Virus record (IMG/VR): IMGVR_UViG_3300047321_000238
Location: 174,297-238,296 of that record
Length of the DNA: 64,000 bases
Source: a virus
Direction: 5' to 3' (one strand)
The notes below the pieces were generated by a model. That model was given only the letters and a program-made list of their open reading frames with translations, made no database searches and was not told the DNA's origin. Each line of letters begins with the position of its first letter. Positions within the stretch are counted from its first letter, which is position 1. This document shows positions 14,850 to 51,141 of the stretch, piece by piece. The position numbers and the translations under genes were made by a program.

Positions 14850-15239
14850 CTATTCTGTTGGTGTCCATTCAGCTGTGTATTCTTCATCAAAAATAATTCT
14901 ACTTACTCTAGCTCCCCTATATGCAGGAACTCTTTGATCAGGATATATTGCTCCTTCACCTATTTCATATGCATTTACATCATCATTATAACGTCCATTA
15001 ATATTTGTAACATGAGTATAAGTTTCATTAATCATTAATATGTTTTGCATCTTAATTTGAGTCTCTGCACAATCAGTAATAAATTTAAAAACTTCTCTAG
15101 GTACAAATTCATTTGTTAATGGATTAACTTTTAATATATTATATGCACCTGCATAATCTTCTTTTGTATCTCCGTTATATATTAAATTTAACGCTTCATA
15201 TATATCTTGTATTTGTTGAGTATATTTAAGTAGTTCCAC
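14850..15239 (-). CDS. Small protein with MELL tag (129 aa), first gene of the dnaE operon
   Basis: It starts with GTG behind GAGGTGG. The N-terminus MELLKYTQQIQDIYEAL fits the shared tag and continues as an amphipathic helix. The rest is mixed, ending in a beta-like segment (RVSRIIFDEEYTAEW). No family is recognised. It is the first gene after a strong sigma-A-like promoter, followed without gaps by the ribbon-helix-helix gene and dnaE. Confidence 0.8.
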   Translation of the reverse strand: MELLKYTQQIQDIYEALNLIYNGDTKEDYAGAYNILKVNPLTNEFVPREVFKFITDCAETQIKMQNILMINETYTHVTNINGRYNDDVNAYEIGEGAIYPDQRVPAYRGARVSRIIFDEEYTAEWTPTE

Positions 15240-16708: not shown

Positions 16709-17083
16709 TTAATCTAGATATTCCACTTTGAGATCTGCTGATATTAAACTTAATGAATACACCATTTCATCGTCATTGTTTAATCTTACTTCTTTACGCA
16801 TTACGTAAGGACAATATAAGTGTATTGTAACTTGTCCATCTGGTGAACATATTATTAGACTTTGTCCTTCTTTTAAATGAGCAATGTTTTGATCTTTAGT
16901 TATTAAATCAACTACACAGTTTTTTCTTCCTACAGAATGAAAGTCTGGACCTTGACTGGATCCCATAGTGAATACAGGAGCAGTCTCTCTTGTGATTTGA
17001 TAACTAACAGAGTCTGCTGTAATTGTTATTTCTGTTGCATTTTCTAATTTATTTATTTGTTGTACATAACTTAATAATTCCAT
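16709..17083 (-). CDS. Beta-rich small protein with MELL tag (124 aa)
   Basis: ATG at 17083 overlaps the previous stop by one base and follows GAGGAG. After the tag MELLSYVQQINKLEN the sequence is beta-rich (ATEITITADSVSYQI, CVVDLIT, QSLIICSPDGQVTIHLY, MVYSLSLISADLKVEYL), suggesting a beta-sandwich. The neighbour upstream carries the same kind of tag and an Ig-like domain, so this pair may be related structural or decoration proteins. No family is recognised. Confidence 0.78.
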   Translation of the reverse strand: MELLSYVQQINKLENATEITITADSVSYQITRETAPVFTMGSSQGPDFHSVGRKNCVVDLITKDQNIAHLKEGQSLIICSPDGQVTIHLYCPYVMRKEVRLNNDDEMVYSLSLISADLKVEYLD

Positions 17084-17436
17084 TATATTATCTCCTCAGT
17101 TGTAAAAGATGCAGTTATATTTATACTTCCCCTGTCTGTAATGATTATTGGTACTTGTATTTTATCTATGGAAGATGTGACTATATCTATAGTTTTGTTA
17201 CCATTAGTAAATGTACAATTCTTTATGTTGTCTCCAAACATGCCTATTCCATCTATGTGTAACTGCAATATACATATCATTCTATTCCCATGTTCGTTTA
17301 TAGCCTCTACATTTATGAAAGTGTTTATTGGTGATCCATTGTAAATAAAATCGTTATTTTCAAATTCTATATCTATAGCTGTTGGATAGCTATTAATTAA
17401 ATATATTTCAGTATTTATATGTTTTAATAATTCCAT
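17083..17436 (-). CDS. MELL-tagged stand-alone copy of a fibre C-terminal beta domain (117 aa)
   Basis: The start at 17436 is set by AAGGAGGAAATT just upstream; a longer frame to 17481 has no ribosome site. After the tag MELLKHINTEIYLI, the body aligns along its length with the C-terminal domains of the proteins at 54455-55987 and 52898-54433. Shared points in order are: FxxxxxxYNGxxI, an xxNExG/NYQG turn, xLQL/I, NCxFT, K-T-I-x-T, and VPxxITDxGxxxI/V. It is thus probably an Ig-like beta-sandwich. A free copy joined to the sorting-like tag points to a virion decoration or assembly role. This is inference from alignment by eye. Confidence 0.78.
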   Translation of the reverse strand: MELLKHINTEIYLINSYPTAIDIEFENNDFIYNGSPINTFINVEAINEHGNRMICILQLHIDGIGMFGDNIKNCTFTNGNKTIDIVTSSIDKIQVPIIITDRGSINITASFTTEEII

Positions 17437-20408: not shown

Positions 20409-20939
20409 TTACATACCTCCTAATAATAACTTTTTAGCTTTTTTGTCTGCTGAAATTCGTTTTTTGTTGGTATAATAATCCACCCATTCACCTTTGCTAA
20501 GTACTACAACCTTTAAGTTTCTGTCAGGATATTTACACATAAACATTTTTCTCTTTAATTCAAAGTCAGCTGTTGCTATACCTTTTGGATCCACAACCTC
20601 ATTGTGTCCATCAGCATAGTTAACATCGAAATCGCTAATGTATTTAATAGCTTGTACCGTTGGAGCTTTTGTTTGTCTTTTAATTTTATTGAAGTTTGGA
20701 TCATCTCCAAAAACAGCTTGTCCATCTACAATCATGAACTTGTCCTGTAATATGAATTCAGGTTGTAGAGTAAAGCTAGTTACTATTCCTTTAGCTTTTA
20801 AATCTTTTAAGTGTTCGTAATACTGCGATTCCATCTTTGAATCAAATATAATGTCATCCACTGTTGTCTTTGTATGCTTAATCTTTCCTGAGCTTAACTT
20901 AGGTTTAACTGATTTTTTACTCTTGAATCTTCTAGCCAT
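20409..20939 (-). CDS. DUF1064-type nuclease (PD-(D/E)XK fold)
   Basis: The 176-aa protein has a basic N-terminus and then FDSKMESQYYEHL, IVTSFTLQPEFIL, YISDFDVNYADG and VVDPKGIATADFELKRKMF. These are the hallmark blocks of DUF1064, a phage nuclease family related to Holliday-junction resolvases, with Glu (SKMES), Asp (SDFDV) and D-P-K as likely catalytic residues. It probably resolves branched DNA in replication or packaging. It lies between replication and sigma-factor genes with a GGGGGAAA ribosome site. Confidence 0.85.
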   Translation of the reverse strand: MARRFKSKKSVKPKLSSGKIKHTKTTVDDIIFDSKMESQYYEHLKDLKAKGIVTSFTLQPEFILQDKFMIVDGQAVFGDDPNFNKIKRQTKAPTVQAIKYISDFDVNYADGHNEVVDPKGIATADFELKRKMFMCKYPDRNLKVVVLSKGEWVDYYTNKKRISADKKAKKLLLGGM

Positions 20940-20964: not shown

Positions 20965-21093
20965 CTACTTACTTTTCTTAGCAGTAGCTTTATCTTTAGT
21001 CTTAGTTGGTTTAGCTTTAGAATCTTTAACTAGTGAAGTTATTTCTTTAACTTCTTTAGGTTGATGTCCTACATATTCTTTAAGTTCTAACAT
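20965..21093 (-). CDS. Lys-rich tiny protein (42 aa)
   Basis: ATG at 21093 follows GGAGGTGAATGTA. The peptide begins MLELKEYVGHQPKEVKEIT and ends in a very basic Lys/Thr/Ala tail (KPTKTKDKATAKKSK). It resembles in composition the three tiny basic proteins at 22796-23276, which have the same kind of ribosome site. It could bind nucleic acid. It fills the gap between the DUF1064 and Cas4-like genes. Confidence 0.7.
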   Translation of the reverse strand: MLELKEYVGHQPKEVKEITSLVKDSKAKPTKTKDKATAKKSK

Positions 21094-21109
21094 TACATTC
21101 ACCTCCTTG

Positions 21110-21823
21110 TTATTTCCATCCTCTGCAATAGTTCTTATAAGAGCAACTTTGACACATGTGTGATTCTCTTGGGTAAAAGGCTTTATTGTTTATCCCTGTA
21201 GCTACTCCTTCTATAGTAGCAAGTAACCTATTATAATCGTTTTCTGTTCTTGCTGTTATGAAGTCTTTACCAGATTTAACATTATGGACTTTAGTTGCAT
21301 AGATTTGATTGTCCTTATTTGAGTTGTTAAATGACATCATATCTATTGAATACTTTAACTTAGTATCCACTTCTAATTGGTCAGGCAATCTTGATGAGAA
21401 ATTCATAATTAGAAATTCTAACTTCTTATCTTTGTTGATTGCAACTGGGTTCATTATTCCTTCTAATATAGTTTCTTTATGTGTTATCATATATCTAACA
21501 TCAGAATCTATTACAGCAATTTGATTACTGCATGCCCAGTTATAGAAGTTTCTTAATTGAAATATTGCATCGGTATATTGTTTTGTACTTATGATATCCA
21601 TGTAAGGTTTGGCTAGAGATTCAAACTTGGTTGTTATCATGTTCATAGTCGGAGTCTTCAAGTTGTTTACTACATAGAAGTAAAAGTACTTAGATACTGT
21701 ATTCAGTATTGAGTTTATTGAGAAAGCATCTTCTATTACTATTTTTTTATTATATTTCATATCGTACTTTGCAGGACAATATATATAATCAAATAATTGT
21801 TGTTCTGTTAAACTAGTTTGCAT
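21110..21823 (-). CDS. Cas4/AddB-like Fe-S PD-(D/E)XK protein, active site apparently degenerate
   Basis: Start at 21823 is chosen because the upstream small gene ends just inside it and a GGAG lies 10 bases before; 237 aa. Cys16 (IYCPAKYDMKY) together with Cys224, Cys227 and Cys233 (CQSCSYKNYC at the end) is the cysteine layout of the 4Fe-4S cluster in Cas4 and AddB-type nucleases. The expected G-x-x-D and D-x-K catalytic motifs appear as GIMNPV and IMNFSS, so nuclease activity may be lost. There is no CRISPR array nearby. Its place among replication genes suggests a role in DNA end processing or binding. Confidence 0.75.
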   Translation of the reverse strand: MQTSLTEQQLFDYIYCPAKYDMKYNKKIVIEDAFSINSILNTVSKYFYFYVVNNLKTPTMNMITTKFESLAKPYMDIISTKQYTDAIFQLRNFYNWACSNQIAVIDSDVRYMITHKETILEGIMNPVAINKDKKLEFLIMNFSSRLPDQLEVDTKLKYSIDMMSFNNSNKDNQIYATKVHNVKSGKDFITARTENDYNRLLATIEGVATGINNKAFYPRESHMCQSCSYKNYCRGWK

Positions 21824-21977
21824 TACTACACAACTCCATTCTTTTACATTCATCCTTTGATAACTGTCTATAAGAACTGTTTTCAGAGAACAAGTTTTTT
21901 AATATGTCAAATTCCTTAGTTGTAAGAATCGAGTTAACATCGTTATCATAGTTATGCACAAGAATGAAGTTGCTCAT
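21813..21977 (-). CDS. Small protein of unknown function (54 aa)
   Basis: ATG at 21977 follows AAGGAGGCGTTATTA. The protein starts MSNFILVHNYDNDVNS and ends in CKRMELCSNAN, overlapping the Cas4-like start by 11 bases, which suggests translational coupling. The middle (TTKEFDILKNLFSEN) looks helical. No family is recognised. Confidence 0.7.
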   Translation of the reverse strand: MSNFILVHNYDNDVNSILTTKEFDILKNLFSENSSYRQLSKDECKRMELCSNAN

Positions 21978-21990
21978 TAATAACGCCTCC

Positions 21991-22458
21991 TTATATAATT
22001 TTGCTTTTTGTTTTATAATATATAGAACATGCTAATGAAAAGTGTGCACCTGGAGTATTAGGATTAGGTATTAATAATACCATTGGGTGATCCTTTCCTA
22101 GTTGTCCCTCTATAGCTTGGAATATAGATTCAATATAAGTTTGAGGTACTTTTATATCCTCATTTAATTCATTCAATAACTTTCTTGCTTTGAATAGATT
22201 TTCAAAGTCTGACTCTCCATATTTGTAAGCTATATTATGAAGAAGAGAAGCAGCTGCTAGAACATCTACGAACAATGCATAATTGTTATCAGCTATTAAC
22301 TTATCATTCTTAAGCAAGAAGAACATCCACTCTGTTACTTGAACTGCATCTTCAGCAGTTTCATCAGTAGCATAAATTTCTACAGCTTTTGAAGTTAACT
22401 CTTTAATGCTTATATCTTGTATTCTTTCTACATAAGTACTATATGTTGATTTATCCAT
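21991..22458 (-). CDS. Helical protein, possibly a degenerate HD-domain protein (155 aa)
   Basis: It starts behind GGGGGATAACACTTA. The all-helical sequence contains AAASLLHNIAYKYG, which resembles the HD motif of metal phosphohydrolases (LLHDI) with Asn in place of Asp, and a later HPMVLLIP and GAHFSLAC. If it is an HD protein, a key metal ligand is changed. The call is weak; it may be an unrelated phage protein. It is between a zinc-finger gene and the Cas4-like module. Confidence 0.6.
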   Translation of the reverse strand: MDKSTYSTYVERIQDISIKELTSKAVEIYATDETAEDAVQVTEWMFFLLKNDKLIADNNYALFVDVLAAASLLHNIAYKYGESDFENLFKARKLLNELNEDIKVPQTYIESIFQAIEGQLGKDHPMVLLIPNPNTPGAHFSLACSIYYKTKSKII

Positions 22459-22472
22459 TAAGTGTTATCCCC

Positions 22473-22745
22473 CTAGTTCTCTTCTTTATTTGCTTTTGCA
22501 AACTCTGCTATATGTTCATCATGTATTGCTTTAACACAATCCATACATATGCATTGGTCTACTCCGCTAGTTCTTACGAATATAGCTTTCTTGTTTGCTA
22601 TCTTCCCTTTAAGTTCTGCTTGTGCTTCATAAGCACCTATCTTCTTTTCTGCACAAAGTTTCTTTGCACATATTGTACAGTAATCATTGTCACCTGCTAT
22701 TTTAAGAAAATCATTTATAGCTGTAACTCCATTATATATTGCCAT
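22473..22745 (-). CDS. Small zinc-finger protein (90 aa)
   Basis: CTICAKKLC and QCICMDC form a likely treble-clef or zinc-ribbon site of two Cys pairs about 37 residues apart. The rest is helical and charged. The ribosome site AAGGAGG precedes ATG at 22745. A GC-rich hairpin (22772-22787) lies just upstream. It is probably a nucleic-acid or protein-binding factor in the replication cluster. No specific family is recognised. Confidence 0.75.
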   Translation of the reverse strand: MAIYNGVTAINDFLKIAGDNDYCTICAKKLCAEKKIGAYEAQAELKGKIANKKAIFVRTSGVDQCICMDCVKAIHDEHIAEFAKANKEEN

Positions 22746-22771
22746 TATTATTCCTCCTTTAATTTATGTTT

Positions 22772-22787
22772 GGGGGACTTAGCCCCC
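22772..22787. other. GC-rich intergenic hairpin
   Basis: GGGGG-acttag-CCCCC stands out in AT-rich DNA. It lies between a tiny basic gene and the zinc-finger gene with no T-run on either strand, so an RNA stability or processing element is more likely than a terminator. Confidence 0.6.
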
Positions 22788-22795
22788 GTTATTTG

Positions 22796-22939
22796 CTATT
22801 TACCTTTTGTCATTTTAGCAGGCATAGTAGTTGATTTCTTAGCTGCAGGTTTAGTAGCAGTTTTCTTTGCTCCCTTTTTAGCAGTTGCTTTTTTATCAGT
22901 TGCCTTAGCATCTTTTTTAGCGAATGGTATGAAAGCCAT
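22796..22939 (-). CDS. Histone H1-like Lys/Ala-rich tiny protein (47 aa)
   Basis: ATG at 22939 follows GGAGGTGAACATT. The protein begins MAFIPFAKKDAKATDKK and continues as Lys-Ala-Thr repeats (AKKGAKKTATKPAAKK), ending TKGK. The composition matches the DNA-binding tails of bacterial histone H1-like proteins. It may condense phage DNA or bind RNA. It belongs to a set of tiny basic proteins with matching ribosome sites. Confidence 0.75.
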   Translation of the reverse strand: MAFIPFAKKDAKATDKKATAKKGAKKTATKPAAKKSTTMPAKMTKGK

Positions 22940-22973
22940 AATGTTCACCTCCTTTTATCATTTGTTAGTTAAC

Positions 22974-23114
22974 CTACTTGCTAGCACTCATTCTTGTAGC
23001 ATTGCTAATTGTTTTAGCATTGCAAGTAGTAACTTTGTTTGTAGTTAAACTTGATCCTATTGAACTAGGAACAACTACAGATGGTCCAGATGTCTTCTTT
23101 GGAAATGTAGGCAT
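22974..23114 (-). CDS. Tiny basic protein, paralogue of the next gene (46 aa)
   Basis: ATG at 23114 follows AAGGAGGTGAAATCT. The protein reads MPTFPKKTSGPSVVVPSS and then a C-terminal part shared with 23148-23276: the blocks SLTT, NAKT and TRMSASK are in the same order and spacing. It is Ser/Thr/Lys-rich and probably unstructured in isolation. The conserved TRMSASK end in two adjacent genes supports real coding and a tandem duplication. Function is unknown. Confidence 0.75.
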   Translation of the reverse strand: MPTFPKKTSGPSVVVPSSIGSSLTTNKVTTCNAKTISNATRMSASK

Positions 23115-23147
23115 AGATTTCACCTCCTTATAATGTATTGCTTACTA

Positions 23148-23276
23148 CTATTTACTTGCACTCATTCTTGTACTTTTGTTAGCAGTCTTTGCATTTGGTG
23201 CAGTTGGTTTTTTAGTAGTTAAGCTTTTACCAATCTTTGCAGGTTTAGTAATTTTTGTTGTAGTCTTCTTAGCCAT
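23148..23276 (-). CDS. Tiny basic protein, paralogue of the previous gene (42 aa)
   Basis: ATG at 23276 follows GGGAGGTGACTAAC. The protein starts MAKKTTTKITKPAKIG, followed by SLTT, NAKT and TRMSASK as in its neighbour. It is about one third Lys, with no acidic residues that I can see, so binding to DNA, RNA or an acidic protein is likely. It directly follows the DnaB-type helicase gene. Confidence 0.75.
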   Translation of the reverse strand: MAKKTTTKITKPAKIGKSLTTKKPTAPNAKTANKSTRMSASK

Positions 23277-23305
23277 GTTAGTCACCTCCCTTCAATGTCA
23301 TGTTA

Positions 23306-24490
23306 TTAAGATTGGATAATGATTTGGTCATATCTCTTGTTATCTTCTTTTTTACATTCCATACATAGAGAGTAGTAAGGTCTGAACTTAGTGTAGGTTC
23401 TTCCTTTGAATGAAGACTTCTTGTTTTTGCTCCAGTCAATTTCAATAATCGCTCCTAGTTTATCTTCAGCCATATCATCTGCCCAGTATATCTTAGCTCC
23501 ACCTTTGTTCTTAGAAACATCATTGTAAACTAACCAAACTACAGAAGCTTCATATAATAATGTATTTGCTTCTTTTAAATCATCTACGCCTGGTCTTCTA
23601 TTACCATTAAGTTTTCTTAAGTGAGATGAAGAGAAAACAACTATGTCATAATCAACAGATAAGTCTTTAACAAAAGCTGCTGTGAACTCTGCTTTTTGTT
23701 TATCTGATGTTGTATTAAAATCTAATTTAATATCATTTATAGAATCTATAGCTATTATGATATTCATTTCAGGATCGATAGACTTAACAAAGGTTTGTAC
23801 CTTTATGATATGCTTCTTTAAATCAGTTTGATTTTTAATCTTAGTAGTATCTTCTATTTTAAATAAGTTAGATTCTTCTCTAAGTTTCTTTAAACCAATT
23901 TCTCTTTTCTTTAATTGATCTTCAAAGATTAAAGCGTTATCATCATCGCCATGGTCTATCATGTTTTGAAATCTCTTTGGCTTAGATGCAACTGCTATTG
24001 GTATTTGTTGTTCCATAGCAATTATTCTAGGAATGATTTCATTCTTACTATCATCTAATGAATAGTAAACACCATATAATTTATTTTCTTTGCAAGAACA
24101 TATATCTTTAAGTATGTTCATCATTAAGGCAGACTTACCACTGTTTGATTCTCCAGCAAATAAGTAAAGTCCAGATTCTAAACCTTCAAGTCTTGCTTCC
24201 ATTTCTGGATAACCAGGTATCTTATATCCGTCTCCTTTGTTCCATGCTCTTTCATCAAAGTTCTCATAATCATTTCTAGTTGTTGCAAAGAAATCTTCCA
24301 TAATAACATCTTCTGATGATTCTACAGTTTCTTCTTCTTTTAAAAGAACGTTCTCAAGAGTTTGTACAGAATCTACATTGTAGATATCTTGGTCATCTTG
24401 CTCTATGATATCTTTGCTTTCTATAACTTCCTCTTTGATAATCTTTGGAACAATATTAACTGATGGTTTTTTCCCTGGTAACTTAATCAT
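23306..24490 (-). CDS. DnaB-type replicative helicase (RecA-fold ATPase)
   Basis: The 394-aa protein has a long acidic N-terminal region (1-90) and a RecA-like core: Walker A GESNSGKS (113-120), a Walker B strand IIIAIDSIND, SSSHLRK and a DLKEANTLLYEASVVWL segment typical of DnaB H4 and sensor regions. The N-terminal DnaB domain that contacts primase is not recognisable. It likely unwinds DNA at the phage fork. Only 12 bases separate it from the primase gene, whose product is the probable partner. Ribosome site AGGGGGAAG. Confidence 0.85.
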   Translation of the reverse strand: MIKLPGKKPSVNIVPKIIKEEVIESKDIIEQDDQDIYNVDSVQTLENVLLKEEETVESSEDVIMEDFFATTRNDYENFDERAWNKGDGYKIPGYPEMEARLEGLESGLYLFAGESNSGKSALMMNILKDICSCKENKLYGVYYSLDDSKNEIIPRIIAMEQQIPIAVASKPKRFQNMIDHGDDDNALIFEDQLKKREIGLKKLREESNLFKIEDTTKIKNQTDLKKHIIKVQTFVKSIDPEMNIIIAIDSINDIKLDFNTTSDKQKAEFTAAFVKDLSVDYDIVVFSSSHLRKLNGNRRPGVDDLKEANTLLYEASVVWLVYNDVSKNKGGAKIYWADDMAEDKLGAIIEIDWSKNKKSSFKGRTYTKFRPYYSLCMECKKEDNKRYDQIIIQS

Positions 24491-40836: not shown

Positions 40837-41982
40837 TTATTCCCAAATTTCGTAAGTAATTGTAGCATTAGCTGGATAAAATCCACTAGTTGCAGTGATA
40901 GTAGTTGAAGTGCAAGTAATATTAGCTACGGATCCAGAGCCAGCCCAAAAAACACCTGATATACTAGGATAAGAATAATGCCCACCAGACACGGCTGAAG
41001 ATGTCATATAAATAAAACGTGCTGTAAAAGGCAATGTAAAAGTTGCTGCTGTTGAAGTCACATAATTAAATGTTCCTGTAGCATATCTTTTCCCACCTAA
41101 ACTTGCTATTGTCAATGAACCTGTTACTCCGAATATGCTCTTACCACTAGGTATATTACTAGCTATAAAGTTAGCATCATAAGCATATACCCAACAATTA
41201 GCATCACCACTCCAATATCCTTGAGCTGGCTTTAGGTAAACTGTTCCAACGGCGTTTAATCCAGTACTTATACACGCTTCTTGTTCATGTGTAGCCATTA
41301 TTCCAGTTAGTCCAATTCCATTAGCACTATTAAAAGTAGAACCAGCTAACACTTGAGCTGTAGTTGCAGTACCTGTAGTAGCTGCTATTGTTTGTGCTCC
41401 ACTAAGATATTGATTAGTAGCTATTGTTTGTACCGCGGTGCTTGGATTGTAAGTTTGTGCAGTCTTACTAGACATAGTCCCAACTAATCCCGTATCATCA
41501 TCATTGCTAAAAGTTTTACCAGCTAGAACATTAGCAATTACTGCTGTGCCCTCTGTACTAGCTTTGATAAAAAAATTATCACCACTTAAGTTGTACCATA
41601 CGGTATAAGCCTTTCCTAAAATTAAGTTAGGTGCTAAAACTGTATTAGGCTTGTACAAAGGCTTTCCATTAATTGTTGTAGCAACTCCACCATTACTTGC
41701 ACTTGCTATAAAAGTTCTATTATAACCATTTGTTAATGTTCCAAAAGTTAAAGTAATAACTGTTCCAGTTCCACCTGCTGTTTCATATGCAGAGTCAGAT
41801 GGCTGAATGGAATTGACAACTACAGTTAAATTATCTAAGTCTAATTGTTTTGCAAAACCAATATTTCCAGAATCAGAGCCAACATAAAACTCTTCTGTAT
41901 CAGTAGTGAAAGCTGGCTCGCCTACACTTAATGTAGGAAGATTAGCTTTAGCTCCTCTTTTCATTTGTATTTTTTGACTCAT
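40837..41982 (-). CDS. Fibre protein with Mtd-like attachment domain (381 aa)
   Basis: The N-terminus MSQKIQMKRGAKANLPTLS, then GEPAFTTDTEEFYVGSDSG, is the shared attachment module of five genes here; it resembles the N-terminal domain of Mtd-type tropism proteins. Residues 60-145 are a beta domain also found in the next genes (ITLTFGTLTNGYNRTFIAS, KPLYKPNT). Then come repeats of the form VLAGKTFSNDDDTGLVGTM and LAGSTFNSANGIGLTGIM, and a unique C-terminal tip. It is a receptor-binding fibre candidate. Confidence 0.83.
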   Translation of the reverse strand: MSQKIQMKRGAKANLPTLSVGEPAFTTDTEEFYVGSDSGNIGFAKQLDLDNLTVVVNSIQPSDSAYETAGGTGTVITLTFGTLTNGYNRTFIASASNGGVATTINGKPLYKPNTVLAPNLILGKAYTVWYNLSGDNFFIKASTEGTAVIANVLAGKTFSNDDDTGLVGTMSSKTAQTYNPSTAVQTIATNQYLSGAQTIAATTGTATTAQVLAGSTFNSANGIGLTGIMATHEQEACISTGLNAVGTVYLKPAQGYWSGDANCWVYAYDANFIASNIPSGKSIFGVTGSLTIASLGGKRYATGTFNYVTSTAATFTLPFTARFIYMTSSAVSGGHYSYPSISGVFWAGSGSVANITCTSTTITATSGFYPANATITYEIWE

Positions 41983-42002
41983 TTATTATTCCTCCTTTTT
42001 TA

Positions 42003-43694
42003 TTATCCAATTGCAAACCAAGAACACAGATGAGAACCATTCGACGTATATATTGGTAATGTAAATCCAGTACTTGATATAACTACTGGTGACGTATCTC
42101 CTCTCATGCAATAAGTTCCATATCCAGTATTACCTCCACTATCGTTAGTGTTCGAAAACGACCTAACTATAGCTCCAGCATATACTGGATCAGGTAATAT
42201 TTTTTCATATATTGTAGAATAGGTCAGCGTAGTACCATCACGATATTTTAATGATATAAAAGTCGGCAAAAATGTCAAACCTGTTACAGTTGCAGTAGCC
42301 ATATATACTAGATTTCCATATACTGTAGTAAAAGCAATAGCACTTGCAGAAGATGTAACAGTACCACTTGCAAAATTTAAACCACCCATATTTGCTGCTG
42401 TTGCTGTACCAATTACTCCAAATATATTTTTACCAGTTACTATATTAGCAGCTACTAACTCTGCTTCAGCAGCTTGAAGTTGTGTTGTTGGAACTTTTAC
42501 TTCTGAAGATCCTCCTCCTGATCCAGAGAGATAGTAACCTGATTGAGCTAAATAAACTGCTAAAGCTCCATCGCCCCATTGAGAACATGAACTTGATATA
42601 TTAGCGGCTCCTATAGTTGCCATTGTTCCAGTAATTTTATTTCCATTTACATATGCAGTTTGACTTGCTAATATTTGTGGAGCTGTTGCAGTTGCATCGG
42701 AAGTGTAAGTCCCTGCTACATAATGTCCACTCCATCCAGCTTGTGCTCCTGCTTTTATATTACTAGGATATAGATTTGGAATATGAATTCTTGATAAAGA
42801 ACTTCCATTGTAATATCCTTCTGGAATATACATGTCCCATGCTCCAACTGACGTATTAGATGTGGCTCCTCCGCATAAAGCAGCACTTGCAGTAAATGCA
42901 TCTATTGCAGAAGAACCTATTATTGTTCCAGATTTATTAACCATAGTACCTGTTAATTGTGCTCCATCTACAAATGCAATTTGACTTGCTAGTATCTGTG
43001 CTGCAGTTGCAGTACCAGGACTGGTATCAACAACATTACTATTTCCTGCTAATCCAAATACTGAAACTCCTGATTTTATATTAGTTGAAATAAAATTGCT
43101 ATCAATAACTTGTGTGTTAGTTCCAGCTACTCCATCGTAATATCCAATTTTAGGACGAACATTTAACAGACCAGATCCATCAGTAAAAATAGCATCTGCT
43201 GTTGTTATTGTTCCAGTTCTATCTATCATAGTTCCAGTTAATCCTACATCACTATCATTGCTAAATGTTTTACTCGCTAGTACTTGAGAAGCAATTACAT
43301 CTCCTTCAGCACTAGCTACACAAAAAAAACAACTACTTGCAGAATTGTACCAAATAGAATACGCCTTCCCAGCTACTAAATTCGGAGCTGTTGTTGTATT
43401 AGGTTTGTATAATGGATAGGTTGCATTAATAGTCGTTGCTGAACCACCATTATTAATATTTGCTATAAACTTTTTAGAATATCCACTTGTTAAAGTTCCA
43501 AGAGTTAGTATCATAGCAGTGCCTGTTCCACTCGCTGTTTCGTAAATCATTTCAGATTCTTTTATATATCGTATATTGCTTGTACCATTGCCGACATATA
43601 AATCATTACTATCAGTAGTGAAAGCGGGTTCGCCTATACTTAACGTAGGAAGATTTGCTTTAGTACCACGTTTGAATAATATTTTTTGACTCAT
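42003..43694 (-). CDS. Fibre protein with Mtd-like attachment domain (563 aa)
   Basis: It opens with MSQKILFKRGTKANLPTLS and GEPAFTTDSNDLYVGNG, then the same beta domain as 40837-41982 (LTLGTLTSGYSKKFIANI). Five or so repeats of (Q)xLAS-Q/K-T-xFx-N/D-GxxLTGTM follow. The C-terminal domain, beginning NMGGLNFASG and including VTGLTFLPTFI and SSTGFTLPIY, is shared with 44366-45736, ending CSWFAIG. The mosaic of shared start, repeats and tip suggests recombination among fibres. Ribosome site AAGGAGGAATAACAA. Confidence 0.83.
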   Translation of the reverse strand: MSQKILFKRGTKANLPTLSIGEPAFTTDSNDLYVGNGTSNIRYIKESEMIYETASGTGTAMILTLGTLTSGYSKKFIANINNGGSATTINATYPLYKPNTTTAPNLVAGKAYSIWYNSASSCFFCVASAEGDVIASQVLASKTFSNDSDVGLTGTMIDRTGTITTADAIFTDGSGLLNVRPKIGYYDGVAGTNTQVIDSNFISTNIKSGVSVFGLAGNSNVVDTSPGTATAAQILASQIAFVDGAQLTGTMVNKSGTIIGSSAIDAFTASAALCGGATSNTSVGAWDMYIPEGYYNGSSLSRIHIPNLYPSNIKAGAQAGWSGHYVAGTYTSDATATAPQILASQTAYVNGNKITGTMATIGAANISSSCSQWGDGALAVYLAQSGYYLSGSGGGSSEVKVPTTQLQAAEAELVAANIVTGKNIFGVIGTATAANMGGLNFASGTVTSSASAIAFTTVYGNLVYMATATVTGLTFLPTFISLKYRDGTTLTYSTIYEKILPDPVYAGAIVRSFSNTNDSGGNTGYGTYCMRGDTSPVVISSTGFTLPIYTSNGSHLCSWFAIG

Positions 43695-49009: not shown

Positions 49010-51067
49010 CTATAGTTTGTATATTTCAACATGATTTTTGTAAGTATAAACATAATTAGGATAAGTTCCTGTATAAGTAGTAATACTGCCCATGAGCAAT
49101 CTATATTTACTTGTTAAGTTACCATAGTAACCTAAAGGAGATTGAGTGAATGTACCAGTAGTAGGATCAATTCCATCCATATATCCTGAACTAGCACTAG
49201 TTGTCCATTGTTGAGGATTATTAGTTAGAAGTCCTCCAAAAGCATAAATCGGATCACTATTGTTACTAGATGAATAGAAGTAATATTCTTGAGTATCACT
49301 TAAAATATCATAAATGTAATAATAAGTTTTATCCGTATCGCTACTATTAGAAGAATGTATATGCTCAGTTTGAATTTCAATTAATCTATCAGCTTCTTGA
49401 CTTGGAAGAGTATAAGCACGATATTGATCTGCATCCCAAGCAGAACTGTTTCTTGTTCTAATAAGTCCTTGATAAGTTCTAACAATAGATGCAGTATTAG
49501 TAATATCAACCTTAGCAAAATGACTATAATTAGATGTTCCATTGTTTGTTAAATTTTGTTCTTTTATATATACATAATTACCTTTTATAGCCAAAGCAGC
49601 AGAATCATCATATGTTACTAATGATGGTAAATCACATACAGTAGTTAAAGAGAAATTCGCATTAACTCTACTAACTCTTATAAAAATTCTTTCTCCATAG
49701 AACTCATCTGAATAACTACTAGAATACTTAGCATTCGAATGATAATATTGAACTGGAGAATAGTGACAATATTCAATAAAATACAAGTTAGCTGTATTTG
49801 AATAATCTACTATAAAATGATTAACAGTTCTCCTATTACTAAAGTTTAGATTATGAGGATCTCCATCAGCATCATTTATTACCATATAAAAATCATCGCC
49901 AGTTCTAGTTGCGTAAGAAGCTACTTCAGCAAATTTCAAATCATATATCTTTGTTCCATATATATAATATTGTTTATTCCATAGTTTCATAGGACCATAA
50001 CCATTTAAACCTGATGCAACTTTTGTTGCTAAATTTCTTCTAAGATTAAATGTATATAGATCATTACCCATGGTTCTATAAAGAACAGTTTCATAATTCA
50101 CTATTCTAACAACTTCAGCTACTCTATCATTTGCAGCTACTATTGTATCTCCGCTAGTAAGAAGTGTACCACTACCTGGCGTTATGTCAGGAGTTGTATC
50201 AAATAGTCCTCCAGATTTCTTACTAGCCCTGATAAAAAAATAGCTTCCAACCCTTACTAATATAATAGGTATTCCAGCTTTTAAATCCCCTGCAGATAAT
50301 AAATCTCCATCAAGATTTTTGATTTGCAAATAAGCTAATGTATTAATTCTTATTGTTGGTGAAGCTCCACAATCAACATGAGGTAATATAACAACAGTTA
50401 CGCCATCTGAATAAGACGCCACACCTGCAATTGATACAGTATAAGCTATATTCGAACCAGTTGTAACAGCATAGTTATTACCCTTAGTAATAATTTGATT
50501 AGTCAAAGTATTAGTTGTTGCAGTATTTGTTGATGTTATAGTACTATTGATAGTTGACACAGTAGAGTCAACTTGAGTCTTTGTATAATACCTAGTATCA
50601 GCCGCAGTCTTAGTATAATAATTAGTATCTGCTTGTGCCTTGGTATAATAATTAGTATCTGATTGCGTTTTAGTATAATAATTAGCATCTGATTGAGCCT
50701 TAGTATACACACTATTTTGTAATAAAGTTACGGTATTATCTTGTGTATCATTATAATCTTGTAAATCAATTATGTTATTATCAATAACATTTATAGATGT
50801 TGCTATACTAGTAAGAGCTCCATCTTGTGTAGCATCTTTAGTTTGGATAGCTGCAATCTGAGATGTAAATGTTGTATCTTTATCTTTTAAACCTTGAACA
50901 TCAACGATGTTAGTATCCTTGTATAGTATTAGTTCTGTGATTCTGTCTTCAACAGAAGTTGCTCCATCGTATTCAACTGCATCTGCAGAAGTGTATGGAT
51001 CTACTTCTTTTAATACTTGTCCAGTATTTTTATCTAATAACTTAATTCTTGCTTTTTCATAAGCCAT
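49010..51067 (-). CDS. Tail fibre/tailspike-like protein (685 aa)
   Basis: Start at 51067 (MAYEKARIKLLDKNTG) follows AAGGAGGAATTAACT; the longer frame to 51118 has no ribosome site. The N-terminal part has a coiled coil and five tandem 10-residue repeats YTKxQxDxNY (50558-50707), a fibre-shaft signature. A beta domain like those of the other fibres follows (YAVTTGSNIAYTVSI). The C-terminal 380 residues are beta-rich with many aromatic residues and may form a propeller-like tip. Receptor binding is likely. Confidence 0.83.
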   Translation of the reverse strand: MAYEKARIKLLDKNTGQVLKEVDPYTSADAVEYDGATSVEDRITELILYKDTNIVDVQGLKDKDTTFTSQIAAIQTKDATQDGALTSIATSINVIDNNIIDLQDYNDTQDNTVTLLQNSVYTKAQSDANYYTKTQSDTNYYTKAQADTNYYTKTAADTRYYTKTQVDSTVSTINSTITSTNTATTNTLTNQIITKGNNYAVTTGSNIAYTVSIAGVASYSDGVTVVILPHVDCGASPTIRINTLAYLQIKNLDGDLLSAGDLKAGIPIILVRVGSYFFIRASKKSGGLFDTTPDITPGSGTLLTSGDTIVAANDRVAEVVRIVNYETVLYRTMGNDLYTFNLRRNLATKVASGLNGYGPMKLWNKQYYIYGTKIYDLKFAEVASYATRTGDDFYMVINDADGDPHNLNFSNRRTVNHFIVDYSNTANLYFIEYCHYSPVQYYHSNAKYSSSYSDEFYGERIFIRVSRVNANFSLTTVCDLPSLVTYDDSAALAIKGNYVYIKEQNLTNNGTSNYSHFAKVDITNTASIVRTYQGLIRTRNSSAWDADQYRAYTLPSQEADRLIEIQTEHIHSSNSSDTDKTYYYIYDILSDTQEYYFYSSSNNSDPIYAFGGLLTNNPQQWTTSASSGYMDGIDPTTGTFTQSPLGYYGNLTSKYRLLMGSITTYTGTYPNYVYTYKNHVEIYKL
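50558..50707 (-). repeat. Five tandem 30-bp coding repeats in a fibre gene
   Basis: Five imperfect copies encode YTKAQSDANY, YTKTQSDTNY, YTKAQADTNY, YTKTAADTRY and YTKTQVDSTV. This kind of repeat could expand or contract by slippage or recombination. Confidence 0.85.
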
Positions 51068-51100
51068 AGTTAATTCCTCCTTGTTACTTGTTTTTTTCAT

Positions 51101-51114
51101 ATATATATTACATA
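51101..51114 (-). promoter_or_regulatory. Candidate phage late promoter element
   Basis: Minus-strand TATGTAATATATAT, about 45 bases before the ATG at 51067 and after a terminator. It matches the GTAATATATA core exactly. Confidence 0.45.
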
Positions 51115-51141
51115 TCATTAATCTTTTATAACTAAGTTAAT

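Follow-up and report, generated by a model that had tools for sequence, protein, structure and literature searches.

In phage T4, a targeting sequence of 10 residues stands at the N-terminus of the internal proteins, the prohead protease cleaves after L/I-x-E, and gp21 has a similar cleavage site near its own N-terminus (PMC9026906). The lysines of the internal proteins contact DNA (PMC3012670). Large phages carry Cas4-like nuclease and DUF1064 resolvase genes, with like neighbours and order in relatives, and a comparable nuclease gene is present in Bacillus phage KLEB27-3. The locus described here holds four tiny genes, designated a to d. Gene a adjoins genes of this known nuclease/resolvase type and is itself unannotated. 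Like T4 IPI-IPIII it has a short conserved N-terminal peptide with an (L/I)xE site and a variable basic remainder, and as in T4 the putative prohead protease of the phage has a similar N-terminal site. Unlike IPI-IPIII it is far smaller, belongs to a replication operon and is known here from sequence alone. Gene b resembles the bacterial histone H1-like Lys/Ala-rich proteins in being rich in Lys, Ala, Thr and Pro with a probably disordered tail, but the likeness is one of composition only.

The window, i.e. the whole stretch of 64,000 nucleotides analysed, corresponds to bases 174297-238296 of a 247,883-bp IMG/VR virus record with 30.5% G+C and about 300 called genes. The record encodes a DNA polymerase, an NAD-dependent ligase, an anaerobic ribonucleotide reductase, a portal protein and a large terminase. 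By terminase comparison the nearest named phages are Moorella phage MTATph1 (43%) and KLEB27-3 (33%). Loci of relatives were gathered via helicase alignments and further ones via a resolvase alignment; single-protein scans with the helicase, a 702-aa protein (49010-51118) and the prohead protease yielded none. Genes a-d had no match in PHROGs, Pfam, NCBIfam or PADLOC, and an RNA family was not found in Rfam. Comparison by tblastn of c, d and the L069 form of a with 50,697 phage records returned nothing up to E 10, where low-complexity filtering may mask matches.

The first-pass annotation had proposed a-d as overlooked genes, and their coordinates, minus strand, lengths (42, 47, 46 and 42 aa), ATG starts and GGAGGTGA ribosome sites all proved exact (Table 1). 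On both strands of the record GGAGGTGA occurs 12 times. Four of these copies precede a, b, c and d as their ribosome sites, with a spacing of exactly 5 nt to the ATG in every case, and only four more lie 3-7 bases before an ATG elsewhere. The chance of drawing four of eight such genes from about 300 is approximately 2e-7 according to a hand calculation made partly after the fact. Since the flanking bases differ (6-10 of 22 alike), the sites look selected and not like copies left by a duplication. Synonymous codon usage of a-d amounts to +0.26 to +0.28 bits/codon, with reference values of +0.15 (sd 0.06) for genes of at least 250 aa and -0.20 (sd 0.18) for antisense frames. A spurious frame on the opposite strand had been described as covering the genes; it lies over b and part of c, but not over d or a, and scores like other antisense frames. 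Six short ORFs with Lys/Ala/Ser/Thr/Pro tails are present in the genome, four of them with a Shine-Dalgarno match of at least 8 nt, compared to a mean of 0.05 and to 0, respectively, in 40 third-order Markov genomes. The codon bias of the major capsid gene was also sought in a-d and gave no clear signal.

It might be argued that a-d are open by chance and happen to have good ribosome sites, as they are very short and as b, c and d are without a homologue outside their own genome in the collections searched. This is contradicted by the codon usage, the Markov control and the rare common ribosome site, as well as by the synonymous changes between c and d and the conservation of a described below, and we consider it highly improbable. 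Codon usage, ribosome sites and the Markov control support the claim of overlooked genes well. By sequence criteria a-d are real phage genes, and they appear to be translated strongly and to fall into two kinds. The initial view of a single group does not hold: a is a gene of the nuclease-resolvase operon, while d-c-b form a lineage-specific insert, and 1.7 kb with four genes separate a from b.

Table 1. Features of the locus in window coordinates.
Feature	Position	Strand	Evidence
Gene a, 42 aa, MLELKEYVGHQPKEVKE... with Lys-rich tail	20965..21093	-	codon usage; positional homologues in L069, L060
Ribosome site GGAGGTGA of gene a, 5 nt before ATG	21099..21106	-	8-mer search of record
Gene b, 47 aa, Lys/Ala-rich, H1-like composition	22796..22939	-	codon usage
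Ribosome site GGAGGTGA of gene b	22945..22952	-	8-mer search of record
Gene c, 46 aa, paralogue of d	22974..23114	-	alignment to d
Ribosome site GGAGGTGA of gene c	23120..23127	-	8-mer search of record
Gene d, 42 aa, paralogue of c	23148..23276	-	alignment to c
Ribosome site GGAGGTGA of gene d	23282..23289	-	8-mer search of record
Cas4-like PD-(D/E)XK nuclease, directly upstream of a	21110..21853	-	PDDEXK_1 3.9e-5, weak Cas4
DUF1064/Holliday-junction-resolvase-type protein, directly downstream of a	20409..20939	-	PF06356 3.3e-29, phrog_190 6.7e-33
DnaB-like replicative helicase, upstream edge of d-c-b accessory slot	23306..24490	-	family match
CxxC protein, downstream edge of d-c-b slot	22473..22745	-	directly after helicase in L018, L069
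Spurious 201-aa frame, antisense to b and part of c	22443..23048	+	ORF list; codon usage -0.25 bits/codon
G+C-rich hairpin GGGGGCTAAGTCCCCC, between b and CxxC gene	22771..22788	-	without T run 3' on minus strand

Six phages have the nuclease and resolvase genes as neighbours (the window phage, L069, L060, L059, L018 and L067), and each of them carries one gene of 40-54 codons between the two; in five of the six the encoded protein contains 27-30% Lys. Clear homologues of a are found in the window phage, L069 and L060 (MLELKEYVGHQPKEVKE..., MAIEIKEYVGHEPKHVKE... and MVEIKEYIGHKPVEIK..., z 9.3-10.6). Their N-termini read LELKEYVGHQP, IEIKEYVGHEP and VEIKEYIGHKP, corresponding to a motif [ILV]E[IL]KEY[VI]GHxP, followed by a variable, Lys-rich tail. 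At L069, a locus in the 118-kb record G010 (30% G+C) whose gene names were given by likeness to window genes, the order is as in the window: helicase, CxxC protein, small genes, nuclease, tiny gene and DUF1064 resolvase, then a sigma-like factor, a short RHH-like protein and a RecJ-like protein. In L060, L059 and L067 the reading frame of the slot gene abuts or overlaps that of a neighbour, and translation of the slot gene is therefore probably coupled. The resolvases adjoining the slot genes, including that of the window, have Lys-rich N-termini. Conservation in relatives, on which the first-pass annotation had made its proposal depend, was thus found for a, but not for b, c and d, as far as sampled. 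Judged from these comparisons, a belongs to the conserved core genes of a large-phage group. AlphaFold gave no confident fold for a (pLDDT 57.7, pTM 0.12) or d (68.9, 0.13), few sequences being available, and both are probably disordered peptides.

Our preferred joint reading, to which we assign a probability of about 45%, is that a would be a DNA tether in the nuclease/resolvase step and d-c-b an accessory cassette. Gene a would be made in one operon with the Cas4-like nuclease and the DUF1064 resolvase. Its N-terminal motif would most likely dock on one of these two enzymes, its Lys-rich tail would hold DNA electrostatically, and the peptide would act as a tether for cutting or trimming of replicated or recombining DNA. 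Several observations speak against this assignment. The location of a, flanked by two nuclease genes, may be a matter of gene packing only. L017 is without a and has a different 164-aa ORF in its place, and the L059 slot protein (MIDLNEKMGSAPV...) matches a weakly and is without the Lys-rich tail. The slot proteins of L018, with four SACKTK repeats, and L067 show no detectable sequence homology to a, sharing size, place and composition. Further, the N-terminus of a resembles that of a putative prohead protease, which points elsewhere.

This resemblance suggests a different role, in which a would be a very small internal head protein that its N-terminal peptide directs, along with the protease, to the core of the prohead. 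The protease would cut a after (L/I)xE, and the Lys-rich rest would remain with the DNA once packaged and might be injected. When the N-terminus of a was scored using homologues from other phages, the best match in its own genome, out of about 1,200 candidate starts, was the putative prohead protease MAIELQEYVGSK (LELKEYVG in a, IELQEYVG in the protease), with a score of 35 (next 26), or 34 (next 27) with another scoring. In G001 the homologous protease (MAIEIREEV) is again the top N-terminal match; the proteases of G010 and G004, however, do not rank high, so that the protease is top in two of the four phages compared. An (L/I)xE site ending at residue 6 or 7 is present in all four proteases compared and in a of the window phage, L069, L060 and L059, against a background of 4.4% of genes; b, c and d are without such a site. 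In the four-protease alignment, residues 3 (I) and 7 (E) are the sole invariant ones before residue 35. The putative protease P0001 (439 aa, record 41088-42407, outside the window) adjoins the portal gene. Three of the four protease homologues match the 'head maturation protease' family phrog_18299, but the protease of the window phage itself matched an uncharacterised PHROG only. P0001 also has a long scaffold-like C-terminus joined on and a Cys/His cluster, CSICG...C.H.

Because the N-terminal match and the (L/I)xE site coincide with the T4 precedent (PMC9026906, PMC3012670), the internal-head role is a serious rival. We nevertheless regard it as doubtful: the pattern was seen after the fact, the counts are not independent since the sequences are related and few, and a is located in a replication operon. 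Known internal proteins gave no match to a in PHROGs or Pfam, nor in phages by tblastn. As an extension, a would be the founding member of a family of internal proteins, minimal in size (40-47 aa), targeted to the capsid and bound to DNA, in large phages with a distant relationship to Moorella phage MTATph1. The first approximately 12 residues would be a targeting/(L/I)xE signal that the prohead protease also carries, and the Lys-rich remainder would travel with the genome, a proposal that we consider unlikely.

Unlike a, the insert d-c-b was met in the window phage only among the loci read. The duplication claimed initially for two of the genes is borne out for c and d, which share 52% identity with a Smith-Waterman score of 99, compared to 28.8 (sd 5.2) for shuffles. 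Identity is gathered in the C-terminal approximately 27 residues, where both keep the block SLTT.K.T..NAKT....TRMSASK, and synonymous codons differ at 10 of 22 identical residues. The N-terminal Lys residues of d are mostly replaced in c. Since the C-terminal block was kept rather than the charge, c and d point to a specific partner. Scores of a and b against c or d do not exceed those of same-composition shuffles, their likeness being one of composition only.

In L069 the CxxC gene begins at 90522, right behind the end of the helicase at 90504, so that d-c-b is absent; in L018 the CxxC gene likewise follows the helicase directly and d-c-b is absent. A c/d profile had no match in eight relatives, while the same profile recovers both genes in their own genome. 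Whole-record scans of G001, G004, G005, G010, G011 and MTATph1 detected no tiny Lys/Ala/Ser/Thr/Pro-rich gene with a good ribosome site except at the position of a. Proteins ending in TRMSASK were not encountered in IMG/VR using a DNA pattern for TRMSASK-stop with restricted codons. As read from these loci, d-c-b is a lineage-specific insertion behind the helicase, missing from every relative read. In L017 a TnpB-like gene and unrelated ORFs occupy this slot; TnpB-like ORFs of the IS200/IS605 type were noted by eye behind the helicase in L017 (9910-11109) and L061 (3301-3756). Because L017 and L061 hold other inserts there, the slot appears to take accessory genes, and d-c-b would be an accessory cassette in which d and c arose by duplication. 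The hairpin downstream of b is a possible end or processing point of the cassette.

Tiny phage accessory proteins often serve host takeover or anti-defence. Such a function for d-c-b would agree with their lineage specificity and with the other inserts in the slot of relatives. PADLOC profiles gave zero matches for a-d, however, and d-c-b are basic and probably disordered rather than compact, which makes this assignment improbable. Alternatively, all four peptides could be general nucleoid- or DNA-compacting or RNA-coating polycations, in line with the abundance of Lys in a, b and d and with the absence of a confidently predicted fold. The description of the genes as basic and Lys-rich applies to a, b and d, but c is weakly basic (six Lys/Arg, zero acidic residues). 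As c lost most of the N-terminal Lys of d with the C-terminal block intact, this peptide is unlikely to compact DNA by bulk charge. Moreover, a retains a specific N-terminal motif, and similarity to known DNA-packing families was not found in PHROGs or Pfam. We rate the polycation reading of all four as improbable, too. For b the comparison with a histone H1 tail made in the first-pass annotation stands as to composition, but H1 and bacterial H1-like family models in Pfam and NCBIfam gave no match, nor did PHROGs or PADLOC; within the preferred cassette reading b would be a polycation of the H1-like kind, with nucleic acid as its probable ligand. The N-terminus of b, MAFIPFAK, has as top match MAKIPFAK of a protein encoded in the structural region (record 50287-50721); its score of 27 does not exceed what other queries attain by chance (up to 28), so that the likeness is a lead at most. 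A PDB search with b gave a chance match only.

Other tiny or tagged genes were observed in the record. The Lys-tailed genes e and f are neighbours outside the window (record 76055-76246 and 76259-76405), one ending in TTAKKKKKKK and the other in KKSTKKSTKKTAVKKTTAKKTATKKK. Between b and f there is some excess likeness (p 0.0035, uncorrected and in low-complexity sequence). In addition, about 23 otherwise different proteins open with M(x)E[LIV]L.[YH][IV][NQ] (MELLKYIN, MEILKHIN and others), at record 68600-79061 outside the window and, within it, at 1043-1210, 1406-1879, 14850-15239, 16709-17083 and 17083-17436. The codons vary synonymously, so that this start is conserved as a peptide; it was found in none of six relatives. 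It is a candidate leader, targeting tag or much expanded gene family.

Genes of about 40 codons, which fall under usual annotation cut-offs, thus include a conserved core gene of large phages, and a was detected solely through its position and ribosome site. If a has the targeting signal of the head protease, it would offer a packaging tag beyond the T4 group that is short and easy to test. Should a act together with the nuclease and resolvase, it would be a minimal DNA tether.
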